From Magnetospirillum gryphiswaldense MSR-1 v2 (GTDB taxonomy: Bacteria; Pseudomonadota; Alphaproteobacteria; Rhodospirillales; Magnetospirillaceae), in assembly GCF_000513295.1 (NCBI RefSeq), contig NC_023065.1, positions 868,001 through 932,000 of the forward strand: a stretch of 64,000 nucleotides of DNA. Reading direction: 5' to 3'. A program made the position numbers and the translations under genes. Positions 23,840 to 35,346 of the stretch are shown here, piece by piece; positions within the stretch are counted from its first letter, which is position 1; each line of letters begins with the position of its first letter. The notes under the pieces were generated by a model. The model saw only the letters and a program-made list of their open reading frames with translations. It did no database searches and was not told where the DNA came from.

Positions 23840-23990
23840 CCGTTTTGGTAATGTGGGCCAGCTTTTCCGGGTGAACGAAGCCGTTGGCCGGGGAAAAGGC
23901 GACGGCCAAGGCGATGGCGGTGGCATAAAGCGCGCCAAGGGCGATGGCTCGCAAGGCGGCTTCGCCGGAAGTAAGGGACACGGGGGGCAT
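23823..23990 (-). CDS. Small single-pass membrane protein
   Basis: A 55-residue open frame with codon use like its neighbours. It begins MPPVSLTSGEAALRAIAL, has one hydrophobic helix (about residues 12-34, ALGALYATAIALAVAF) and a short soluble tail containing HPEKLAHITKTVSLQK. It overlaps the 3' end of glk by 17 bases on the other strand and has its own AT-rich upstream region with an inverted repeat at 24017. No family was recognised. The hydrophobic segment and upstream region make it more likely real than chance, but this is not certain. Confidence 0.5.
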   Translation of the reverse strand: MPPVSLTSGEAALRAIALGALYATAIALAVAFSPANGFVHPEKLAHITKTVSLQK

Positions 23991-24016
23991 GGCTGTCCGT
24001 TCAAAGGTATTAAACT

Positions 24017-24030
24017 TATACTGTCGTATA
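24017..24030. promoter_or_regulatory. AT-rich inverted repeat between divergent genes
   Basis: TATAC-N4-GTATA lies 27 bases upstream of the small membrane-protein start and 143 bases upstream of the hemerythrin-fusion gene, in an AT-rich stretch that is unusual in this window. It could be an operator or part of a promoter. Confidence 0.35.
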
Positions 24031-24172
24031 TGATAAATGAGCTTTCCGGGTCAAGAGCTAAAGTTGCCTTGCCGCCACTTGTTTAGGACACGGCGCCCTT
24101 GCCTTAAGCATTGAGTTGCTGCGCACACGAGTAAGTCCTAGCATAGGGGTGGGGAAGGAACGGGGACGTTTT

Positions 24173-26791
24173 ATGGGTTCTATTCGTAAGATCGAGGTAA
24201 CCACCGGCGTTTGGTGGGTCGAGGTCGCCGCCGCTAATTTGCGGATATTGTGCGGCTGCCCGGCGGACGTGGTGAAGCACCTGATGAAGCGTGGCCTGAT
24301 CGCCCCCGCGGAATGTGCCGGTATCGCCTATGAGACCGGCCCCAATGCCATCTTGCTGTCCGACGTCATGGTGCAAAACGGTACTTTCGCCAATCTGGGC
24401 GAATTTCCGGTGCTGCAGATGCTGTACCGCCAGGGCATGATCATCCCCGATCATCCGGGCAATACCGGGGAAAAGCCGCTGCTGATCGGCTCGGCCGAGC
24501 AGGTGCGCGCCCAGCTTCAATATATCTATCGCGGCAATTATGGACTGATCAGCGAGGACGAGCTGATCGAGGCGGGGGCTTCAGCGCAGCAGGCCAAGGA
24601 TCTGATGCGGATGAAGCTGAAATTCGCTTTCGGCCGCATCCGTCATCCGCAGGAATTGCTGGATATCCTGACGGTGGACGCCGAACCGGTGGCCATTCGC
24701 GGCGGTGTCACCATCCGTCGAGTGCGCCTCAATACCTTCGAGATCTGTTACGGCGGCGATTGCGTCACCGTCGATTTGACCCTGCCGCCGTTCGAGACCT
24801 ATGAATGCCCCTATCCCCTGGGCTTCTACAACATGCAGCGGGAATACTTTTCCGTCGTCCATTCGGGCGAGGGTGACGGCTGGGACATCAACCGTCCGAG
24901 CATGAGCTCGATCCTGATGTTCCAGGGTCGGGTCTATCTGATCGATGCCGGCCCCAACATTCTGTTCACCCTGGATGCGCTGGGCATCGGCGTCAACGAG
25001 ATCGACGGCATCTTCCACACCCATTCGCACGACGATCATTTTTCCGGCCTGACCACGCTGATCCGCGCCGATCACCGCATCAAGTATTTCGCCACGCCGC
25101 TGGTGCGCGCCTCGGTGTCGCGCAAGATGGCGGCGCTTCTGTCCATCGAGCCTTCGGCCTTCGCCGATTACTTTGAATGTCACGATCTGGTGGAAGGCGA
25201 ATGGAACGAGGTTGACGGCCTGGAAGTGCGGCCGTTGTTTTCGCCCCATCCGGTGGAAACCACCATGTTCATGTTCCGCGCGCCGTGGGAGGACGGTTAC
25301 CGCACCTATGCCCATTGGGCCGATGTCTGCCGCCTTGAAGTGCTGCGCAGTTTCGTCACCGACGATGCCGACGCGCCGGGTATCTCCCAGGCCATGTACC
25401 TGAACGTGACCGCGGCCTATGCGCTGCCCGCCAACGTCAAGAAGGTGGATGTGGGCGGCGGCATGATCCATGGCGACGCCTATGATTTCCGCGATGACCG
25501 TTCGGGCAAGGTGATTCTGGCCCATACGTCGGGTCGCAACACGGTGGCGCAAAAGGCCATCGGCTCGACCGCATCGTTCGGCAATGTCGACGTGCTGATC
25601 CCGTCCAACCACGATTTCATCTGGCGTTCGGCCTATGAATTGCTGCTGGCCTATTTCCCCGAAATCCGCCACCACCAATTGCGGGTCTTGCTCAACAATC
25701 CGGTCGAGACCTTCAATCCCGGCACCATTTTGGTCAAGGAGCGGCGCCCGGCGGATTTCATCTATCTGCTGCTGTCGGGCAGTGTCGAATCGCTGCATAT
25801 CGAAGGCGGTGCCCGTTCGGTACTGTCGGCGGGGGCCATGATCGGCGAGTTGTTCGCCTTGTTCGATGCCCCGGTCACCGAAACCTATCGGGCCATCGGC
25901 TTCGTCAAGGCGTTGCGCATTCCGGCGTCGCTTTATCAGGATTTCGTCCGTCGCAACGATCTGTCGGCGGCCATCACCCGTATTTTCGAGAACCGCCAGT
26001 TCCTGCAACGCACCTGGCTGTTCGGCGAGGTGGTATCCACCCGCACCCTGAACCGGCTGGCCAAGGAAATGACCCTGAGCCGTATCCCCGTGGGCGAAAC
26101 CATCGATATCGGCCCCGAATCGGTGGCTCTGGTGATTTCCGGCCAGGTGGGGCGCTATCTGGGCGAGCAGCAGGTGGAAATCTTGCGCTCGGGCGATTTC
26201 TTCGGCGAGGAATTGTCCATTTTCTGGACGCCGTCCATGTTCCGGCTGAAGGCGCTGACGGCGACCGAGGTGTTCTTGGTTCCCGCCGGTCTGCTGGCCG
26301 GCATCCCCTCGGTGCGATGGAAGCTGTTCGAGGCGTCGGGCCGGCGCATGACCTCGATCTTCGAGGGTGACCACAGCGGCAATGGCGGGCTGCTGCACTG
26401 GCGCGAGGAATACCGCGTCGATGTGCTGCGTCTGGACACCCAGCACCGACGCATGTTCGAACAGGCCAATTCCATTCTGGAAGCCATCCAGGCCGGTCAG
26501 GGTGTGGATGATATCCTGTCGCTGCTGGATTCCATGAACGAATACGCCCATTACCATTTCGGCGAGGAAGAGGCGCTGATGGTCCGCTACGCCTATCCGC
26601 AGGCCGAGGCCCACCGCGAACACCACGCCCAATTGTCGCAGCAATTGCTGGACATGCGTCAGACCTTCAAGGATGCCAGCGACATCACCCAGGTGGATTT
26701 CCTACCCTTCCTGCAAACCTGGCTGGTCGGGCACATCACCGGCGAGGACCGGCTTTATACCGAATTCCTCAACGGCAAGGGCGTTTATTAA
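24173..26791 (+). CDS. Metallo-beta-lactamase / double cyclic-nucleotide-binding / hemerythrin fusion protein
   Basis: An 872-residue soluble protein. Residues 1-215 are an unassigned N-terminal region. Residues about 220-500 form a metallo-beta-lactamase-fold domain with the metal motif HSHDDH (H284, H286, D288, H289; HxHxDH) and later His residues in SPHPVE, LAHTSGR and SNHDF. Two CRP-like cyclic-nucleotide-binding domains follow (about 510-615, with GAMIGELFALFDAPV, and 635-735, with SGDFFGEELSIFW). Residues 740-872 are a bacteriohemerythrin with all expected ligands: DTQHRRMF, HYHFGEEE, HREHHAQL and HITGEDRLY. The ATG at 24173 has AAGGAA upstream. It may couple O2 or redox binding and a nucleotide signal to a hydrolase. 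Substrate unknown. Confidence 0.88.
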   Translation: MGSIRKIEVTTGVWWVEVAAANLRILCGCPADVVKHLMKRGLIAPAECAGIAYETGPNAILLSDVMVQNGTFANLGEFPVLQMLYRQGMIIPDHPGNTGEKPLLIGSAEQVRAQLQYIYRGNYGLISEDELIEAGASAQQAKDLMRMKLKFAFGRIRHPQELLDILTVDAEPVAIRGGVTIRRVRLNTFEICYGGDCVTVDLTLPPFETYECPYPLGFYNMQREYFSVVHSGEGDGWDINRPSMSSILMFQGRVYLIDAGPNILFTLDALGIGVNEIDGIFHTHSHDDHFSGLTTLIRADHRIKYFATPLVRASVSRKMAALLSIEPSAFADYFECHDLVEGEWNEVDGLEVRPLFSPHPVETTMFMFRAPWEDGYRTYAHWADVCRLEVLRSFVTDDADAPGISQAMYLNVTAAYALPANVKKVDVGGGMIHGDAYDFRDDRSGKVILAHTSGRNTVAQKAIGSTASFGNVDVLIPSNHDFIWRSAYELLLAYFPEIRHHQLRVLLNNPVETFNPGTILVKERRPADFIYLLLSGSVESLHIEGGARSVLSAGAMIGELFALFDAPVTETYRAIGFVKALRIPASLYQDFVRRNDLSAAITRIFENRQFLQRTWLFGEVVSTRTLNRLAKEMTLSRIPVGETIDIGPESVALVISGQVGRYLGEQQVEILRSGDFFGEELSIFWTPSMFRLKALTATEVFLVPAGLLAGIPSVRWKLFEASGRRMTSIFEGDHSGNGGLLHWREEYRVDVLRLDTQHRRMFEQANSILEAIQAGQGVDDILSLLDSMNEYAHYHFGEEEALMVRYAYPQAEAHREHHAQLSQQLLDMRQTFKDASDITQVDFLPFLQTWLVGHITGEDRLYTEFLNGKGVY

Positions 26792-28048: not shown

Positions 28049-28837
28049 ATGAGCCTGATGGAAGAAATTTACGGCACCCTCGTCGAGCGCAAGACCATGG
28101 CCGTGTGGTTCTTGGGGCAAAACGGCTGGGCCATCCGATCCCCCGCCGGTAAGGTGGTGATCGTCGATCCCTACCTGTCGGATTCGTGCAATCCGTCGCG
28201 GCGCGGCCTTGATCTGGCGCGGCAGGTGCCCATCCCCATTTTGCCCCAGGATCTGCGCGCCGACATGCTGGTGTGCACCCATTCGCACAAGGACCATGCC
28301 GACCCGGAAACCCTGTGCCTCGCCTGTCAGGCCGGGCGCATCGGCGGCTTTCTCGGTCCGGCGCAAACCCAGGCGCTGTTCGCCGACGCCGGCGCACCGC
28401 CCGAGGATTGCCTGCTGACCTGGCCCGGCGACGTGGTGGAGTTGGACGACATCCGTCTGCACGGCACCTTCGCCCTGCCCACCGATACCAGCGACCAGAC
28501 TCATATGGGCTTTGTCGTCGAGGTGGATGACGGGCCGAAATTCTGGATCACCGGCGATACCGCCTGGTGCGATCTGCTGGCCGAATCGGGCGGACAGCAC
28601 CAGCTTGACGCCATGGCCGTGTGCATCAACGGCGGCTATGCCAATCTGTCCCATTGGCAGGCGGCGGAACTGGCCATGCGCGTCAATCCGCGTCTGGCCA
28701 TTCCGTGTCATTGGGACATGTTCGCCGACAATTCCTGCGACCCGCGCATGTTCGCCGCCAGCCTGACCGTCAAGGGCATCGGCGAGAAGTATTGTCTGGC
28801 TGAGCATGGCAAGAAGCTGGTGATCGGCACCGAGTGA
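28049..28837 (+). CDS. UlaG-like metallo-beta-lactamase-fold hydrolase
   Basis: A 262-residue hydrolase with the metal motif THSHKDH (HxHxDH), a preceding VVIVDPYLSD block, ITGDTAWCDLL and a C-terminal IPCHWDMF. This pattern is like L-ascorbate-6-phosphate lactonase UlaG and related enzymes. No ascorbate transport or utilisation gene is near, so the natural substrate is open. The ATG at 28049 is preferred to 28031. It is divergent from the flavoprotein and convergent with the RND gene, with no intergenic space. Confidence 0.85.
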   Translation: MSLMEEIYGTLVERKTMAVWFLGQNGWAIRSPAGKVVIVDPYLSDSCNPSRRGLDLARQVPIPILPQDLRADMLVCTHSHKDHADPETLCLACQAGRIGGFLGPAQTQALFADAGAPPEDCLLTWPGDVVELDDIRLHGTFALPTDTSDQTHMGFVVEVDDGPKFWITGDTAWCDLLAESGGQHQLDAMAVCINGGYANLSHWQAAELAMRVNPRLAIPCHWDMFADNSCDPRMFAASLTVKGIGEKYCLAEHGKKLVIGTE

Positions 28838-34805: not shown

Positions 34806-35198
34806 TTAATCCCGGTTCAGATGATGGAAGATCTTCAGGTCTTCCTCGACGATGTGGCGGTACAGCCAGATATTGAGGAAATGCTCGACATCGGCGGCGC
34901 TGCGCTCGTTGCTGCCCATGGCCACTTCCTCGCGGAATTCGCTGATTTCCTCCAGCAAGGCGCGGTGCAGGCGTTCATGCACCGTCCAGGTGGGCAGGTG
35001 GATGTTGCGCATCACCCGTTCCTCGTGAGCGAAATGGTCCGAGACCATTTCAATCAGCACATCCAACCCGGCCAGCAACTGGCGACGATCCAGCCCGCCA
35101 TGGACGGCGGCGAAGAATTTTTCCACCTGCGCAATCAAGTCCTGATGCTGCTGATCGATGGAGTTGACGTCGGTGCTCAGGCTTTCTTTCCACGTCAT
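34806..35198 (-). CDS. Bacteriohemerythrin
   Basis: A 130-residue O2-binding di-iron protein. All seven ligand positions are visible: H in DQQHQDLI, HFAHEERVM, HERLHRALL, and HIVEEDLKI. The start MTWKES (ATG 35198) has GAGGA 9 bases upstream, while ATG 35207 lies directly on the ribosome binding site. It is a single-domain protein, distinct from the C-terminal hemerythrin of the 24173 fusion. It may store or sense oxygen. It is divergent from the binding protein at 35347. Confidence 0.93.
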   Translation of the reverse strand: MTWKESLSTDVNSIDQQHQDLIAQVEKFFAAVHGGLDRRQLLAGLDVLIEMVSDHFAHEERVMRNIHLPTWTVHERLHRALLEEISEFREEVAMGSNERSAADVEHFLNIWLYRHIVEEDLKIFHHLNRD

Positions 35199-35346
35199 CA
35201 GCAACATTCCTCAATGTTTGAAATGCTTTTAAATTGAAGCGGCAATGATTTGCAATGCTTTCCTACCTAGGCGCAAAACCCATGCCGCATAAGCATGATT
35301 CGGGCTATGATCGCCGCTCGCTTTTATGGGATTACCGGGTGCAGTG

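Follow-up and report, generated by a model that had tools for sequence, protein, structure and literature searches.

The window analysed here, a 64,000-nucleotide stretch of Magnetospirillum gryphiswaldense MSR-1 v2 (contig NC_023065.1, positions 868,001 to 932,000), carries at 24173..26791 on the + strand a gene for an 872-residue protein which, judging from translation, profiles and a structural model, joins a ligand-less metallo-β-lactamase (MBL) fold, an MBL domain, two consecutive cyclic-nucleotide-binding (CNB) domains and a bacteriohemerythrin. The frame is uninterrupted and is kept in 80 relatives at 45–97% identity, over the full length or over about 716–738 residues where the hemerythrin is lacking; since the + reading is conserved in this way, 24173–26791 is a gene. 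An antisense open reading frame (24581–26644, − strand) was set aside because the + frame is the one conserved in relatives. Pfam searches detected the MBL domain (PF12706, 36.6 bits, cut-off 27; PF00753, 34.2 bits, cut-off 22.7) and the CNB pair (PF00027, 62.9 bits over two stretches, cut-off 27.5), an NCBIfam search detected the bacteriohemerythrin (NF033749, 111.2 bits, cut-off 84), and the AlphaFold2 model built from 43 family rows reached a mean predicted local distance difference test (pLDDT) score of 89. An earlier note on this DNA had claimed an MBL domain, two CNB domains and a complete bacteriohemerythrin within these 872 residues, and the profiles, scoring above their curated cut-offs for MBL and CNB alike, bear this out: the multidomain fusion is real and conserved.

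The putative catalytic MBL domain spans residues 223–480 (24839..25612) and contains an HxHxDH metal motif at residues 284–289 (25022..25039). The ligands H284, H286, D288, H289, H359, D384 and H451, assigned by analogy with the superfamily, are identical in 98/98 aligned rows. An MBL oxygen sensor of the di-iron flavoprotein/ODP type was set aside on account of this motif, such proteins carrying one of the HxExDH type instead. The preceding residues 1–222 (24173..24838), about 215 of which the earlier note had left without a recognised domain, proved less anonymous: modelled alone, they gave a pLDDT of 86, and the top Foldseek and VIA-align rows were MBL proteins. Residues 23–130 showed the highest conservation among the stretches compared (mean identity 0.79). 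An N-terminal sequence profile matched nothing in the PDB up to E 10, and the domain matched no viral structure at E 0.001. When the two MBL domains were compared with hhalign, only 13 residues were matched, corresponding to the overlap of the two alignments; duplication is thus not seen at the sequence level, and the case for it rests on predicted structure. The N-terminus is accordingly predicted, from the model, to be a degenerate second MBL fold devoid of ligands.

Behind the two MBL folds lie CNB domain 1 (residues 500–613, 25670..26011) and CNB domain 2 (residues 614–712, 26012..26308), detected as the two PF00027 stretches and matched by Foldseek to the tandem regulatory parts of PKA and PKG. 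Like these, the window protein has two successive CNB folds, but it has no kinase and lacks the phosphate-binding Arg in both domains, the corresponding residues being V568 and S688 in a register taken from alignment with PKG. Arg was found in 0/83 rows at either position, and in the 98-row alignment it occurred in 0/98 at site 1 and 4/98 at site 2, with three of these four rows falling in a divergent clade where the alignment is doubtful; at the neighbouring position 569 it was present in 9/83 rows. The cassette Glu is mostly retained in the main clade, at position 559 in 76/85 rows (0/13 in the divergent clade) and at position 679 in 80/85 (12/13 in the divergent clade). Since the Arg is missing at both sites, binding of cyclic nucleotides in the usual manner is unlikely on sequence grounds, even though the family has retained its CNBs.

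The C-terminal bacteriohemerythrin (residues 740–868, 26390..26776) has the DcrH-Hr domain of DcrH (PDB 2avk) as its nearest solved relative, and each of its seven di-iron ligands (H758, H795, E799, H814, H818, H854 and D859) is retained in between 63 and 67 of the 67 hemerythrin-bearing rows. A terminal bacteriohemerythrin on an output part is likewise found in DcrH and in the hemerythrin-MCP and hemerythrin-GGDEF proteins covered in the available part of PMC2556348, which names MCP, GGDEF, histidine kinase, CheY-like, PAS and EAL partners besides about 20 unidentified ones; unlike in these, the output in the window protein is an MBL-MBL-CNB-CNB core.

This core is not tied to hemerythrin. 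The domain is missing in 31 of the 98 rows (two of them, L084 and L108, stop at the end of the locus), and its pattern of presence and absence requires 11 changes on a quick tree. An N-terminal receiver occurs in six rows (5/5 scanned were confirmed; L102 was judged by eye), one of which, L106, has a hemerythrin besides, and in seven rows there is a periplasmic domain of the SBP_bac_3-like kind, together with a membrane segment as judged by eye (2/2 scanned were confirmed). Twelve of these 13 rows form a clade with one further row (support 100). Because receiver, SBP_bac_3 and hemerythrin inputs, or none, are exchanged on a constant core, the MBL-MBL-CNB-CNB unit looks like an output module, and we consider it quite likely that it serves signalling in this capacity. 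Two arrangements were seen besides: at L043:8001-12991 two family genes stand in tandem, of which only the first includes a hemerythrin, and at L088:8001-11163 a hemerythrin-less core is followed by a small gene and then a stand-alone hemerythrin, apparently the fusion in split form.

The family is widespread. Scanning genomes gave 321 matching stretches, of which 317 had a relative, and the best 80 relatives were analysed; their record titles carry seven phylum labels, namely Pseudomonadota, Campylobacterota, Thermodesulfobacteriota, Planctomycetota, Nitrospirota, Lentisphaerota and a 'Deltaproteobacteria' record placed in Myxococcota. Many of these are labels of metagenome-assembled genomes and some are surely wrong: a relative labelled 'Stygiobacter' shares 97% identity with the query. 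Within the phylum, the protein family was present in 56/398 genomes (best E < 1e-100), with up to 4 core copies per genome; matches of any kind occurred in 136, the remainder being mostly generic MBL segments. No match to the protein was found on plasmids (E 1e-30) or in phages (E 1e-10).

In the M. gryphiswaldense genome the query matched 27 places, and in 25 of these the match was confined to the hemerythrin. The second core copy (56% identity, at G000:C1:3822114) starts 4 bases past the stop of a TPR-CHAT gene, in a row that reads mtxA, a terminator-like hairpin, a CHASE2/class III cyclase gene, TPR-CHAT and the MBL/CNB/hemerythrin gene (L117:128-9733, equal to about 3815127-3824732 of G000:C1). 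Gene order and strand were identical in 13/13 loci (L088, L117-L127 and L131), which were chosen for being linked, and 4 to 65 bases separate CHAT from the first aligned codon of the core. The terminator-like hairpin that follows mtxA (L117 1081-1111, 13 pairs) was not recovered by the scan on that strand in L118; by eye, hairpin-like sequence was present in 13/13 loci. Based on this hairpin, mtxA may be transcribed apart from a tight cyclase - CHAT - core unit.

MtxA was found in 30/55 genomes of the bacterium's own taxonomic family. Of these 30, 20 have a core that shares contig and strand with mtxA and lies about 6 kb downstream of it; the remaining 10 carry core and mtxA on separate contigs, and some of these pairs may still be linked. 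Outside the taxonomic family, no core was found on an mtxA contig among the matches listed. Across the phylum, MtxA occurred in 42/56 core-positive vs 0/72 core-negative genomes, a contrast confounded by lineage (the MtxA model that gave no match in the control-genome search did give matches in other genome searches). The cores that occupy the mtxA slot in two genera fall into separate parts of the quick tree, each with support 100, and their joint grouping was rejected (approximately unbiased test, p 0.0026). One slot group has the fused hemerythrin in 5/5 cores and the other in 0/8; in the latter a separate same-strand hemerythrin frame follows in 5/8 loci, one lies on the opposite strand in 1, and none is present in 2. 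That the slot was filled twice by non-orthologous cores suggests a functional connection of the core with the cyclase. The succession of mtxA and a CHASE2/adenylate cyclase gene has already been published (PMC4439547), in a paper whose available text contains the words 'lactamase' and 'hemerythrin' 0 times, does not mention the MBL protein, and states that 2/5 MtxA organisms are not magnetotactic. Relative to the mtx gene cluster described there, the paralogue comes fourth in the mtxA row; the window copy stands by itself behind a glucokinase gene.

Based on what was observed directly, namely the domains, the ligand conservation, the loss of the CNB Arg, the exchange of inputs and the conserved row with the cyclase, we propose that the window protein may be an O2- or redox-controlled phosphodiesterase of a nucleotide signal, a reading to which we give a little less than an even chance and in which we infer the hydrolysis, its substrate, and the O2 control together with its direction. 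The protein would be an output enzyme of signal transduction whose working core is a two-MBL unit, modelled as an internal pseudo-dimer of the non-catalytic N-terminal MBL and the di-metal catalytic MBL, with the tandem CNBs as a regulatory stalk behind it. The catalytic MBL would most likely cleave a phosphodiester in a nucleotide signal, the first candidate being the cyclic mononucleotide product of class III cyclases. The di-iron site of the C-terminal hemerythrin would sense O2 or redox state and, by way of the CNB stalk, change how active the core is; the stalk may act as a structural relay or bind something other than a cyclic nucleotide. Among the class II MBL phosphodiesterases (YhfI, yeast PDE1) and Apyc1, the latter, a cyclic-nucleotide phosphodiesterase, comes closest to the catalytic MBL, and the Apyc1-like HxHxDH motif and further metal ligands are present in 98/98 rows; Apyc1 is, however, a short homodimer, in which the catalytic Y112 is supplied by the other protomer, whereas the window protein has a ligand-less MBL fused ahead and two CNBs and a hemerythrin behind.

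Several observations weigh against this proposal. The Apyc1 profile PF23023 scored 18.8 bits on the window protein and did not reach its cut-off of 50, and the catalytic E74 of Apyc1 has no counterpart, position 294 (register from a hidden Markov model alignment) being T, P, A or M in 98/98 rows. No cyclase was found among the scanned neighbours of the window copy, and outside the bacterium's own taxonomic family few loci had a class III cyclase gene in the flanks retrieved (6/101 in all). Class III cyclases were present in 56/56 core-positive vs 57/72 core-negative genomes, which is consistent with the proposal and does not discriminate. Further, the available part of PMC4439547 reports that deletion of mtxA had no discernible phenotype under standard conditions.

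Other readings of the CNB pair were considered. The earlier note had the enzyme gated by both a nucleotide signal and O2 or iron redox state, so that the CNBs would be a cyclic-nucleotide receptor governing, together with the O2 input, an MBL hydrolase with another substrate. The tandem arrangement resembling PKA and PKG regulatory parts, the cassette Glu mostly retained in the main clade and the paralogue's position behind a CHASE2/cyclase gene, a possible source of ligand, all suit this model, but the missing Arg at both sites makes it unlikely; the O2 or iron-redox input stays plausible, with the MBL site and the di-iron hemerythrin both intact, while nucleotide gating by the CNBs is not supported. 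The same loss of Arg is described in the available part of PMC10959531 for trypanosomatid PKA-R, which binds nucleosides and whose structures were among the Foldseek matches. A pair that binds a neutral nucleoside and lets the enzyme read the level of nucleoside or product is nonetheless distinctly improbable, as the PKA-R Glu at the position of PKA Ala202 is uncommon here (position 561, 3/85 plus 1/13 in the divergent clade; position 681, 6/85 plus 0/13).

As to the enzyme itself, long RNase Z (ELAC2; the yeast long form) has two MBL folds per chain with the first lacking the motif, as the models predict for the window protein, which brings to mind an RNA endonuclease or phosphodiesterase of that type under the control of a signal. 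We regard this as rather improbable, because the TIGR02651 score of 37 bits falls far under the cut-off of 292.95, and because a bacterial, often multi-copy family with CNBs and up to 4 copies per genome bearing receiver, binding-protein or hemerythrin inputs would suit signalling better than tRNA processing. Membership of an antiphage system, Pycsar-like or of the CHAT-protease kind, is very improbable. The paralogue does adjoin TPR-CHAT and cyclase genes, PycC profiles hit the neighbouring cyclase with up to 111 bits, and TIR-effector and PycTIR profiles gave weak hits on the CNB of the paralogue (17.8–21.5 bits); however, the window protein had no PADLOC match at E 0.001, the PycC models probably respond to class III cyclases as a whole, the row is conserved beside mtxA, and plasmids and phages lack the protein at the thresholds given above.

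No description of the protein or its architecture was found in the open-licence PMC literature. The available part of PMC4919030 puts the number of architectures among long O2-binding hemerythrins at 56, of which the present one may be one, and that of PMC12442639 added nothing on the window protein. Magnetotactic and other gradient-living bacteria have many hemerythrins, whose outputs are often not known. If the phosphodiesterase proposal is correct, a widespread O2-dependent signalling enzyme and an extra output module for bacterial signal transduction would be added, and the mtx neighbourhood would gain a concrete circuit of cyclase, CHAT protein, phosphodiesterase and oxygen sensor. We tentatively suggest, as a possibility somewhat short of even, that the core represents a class of second-messenger output enzyme not described before, employed in several phyla in the manner of GGDEF/EAL modules and twice recruited beside a CHASE2 cyclase in mtxA-bearing bacteria to give an oxygen-dependent nucleotide-signal circuit.

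The window copy itself lies behind glgA and a glucokinase gene, set off from the latter by a 333-base gap (23840..24172, +) in which a simple scan found no sigma-70-like site, and faces an HI0933-like flavoprotein gene; owing to the gap and the facing gene it appears to be monocistronic. No gene neighbourhood was common to the whole protein family among 58 loci. In close relatives glgA adjoins in 11 loci and the flavoprotein gene in 7, and when 78 neighbouring proteins were tallied by Pfam, signalling genes appeared among them in scattered fashion (5 response regulators, 4 hemerythrins, 2 MCP domains). By eye, and in keeping with this tally, the family gene in L065:2811-10614 and L072 lies between a chemoreceptor-like gene and KaiC-like/KaiB-like genes. 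Within the window, a second MBL gene (Lactamase_B_3, 28097-28834) is situated 1.3 kb downstream, and a stand-alone hemerythrin gene is present at 34806-35207 on the − strand.
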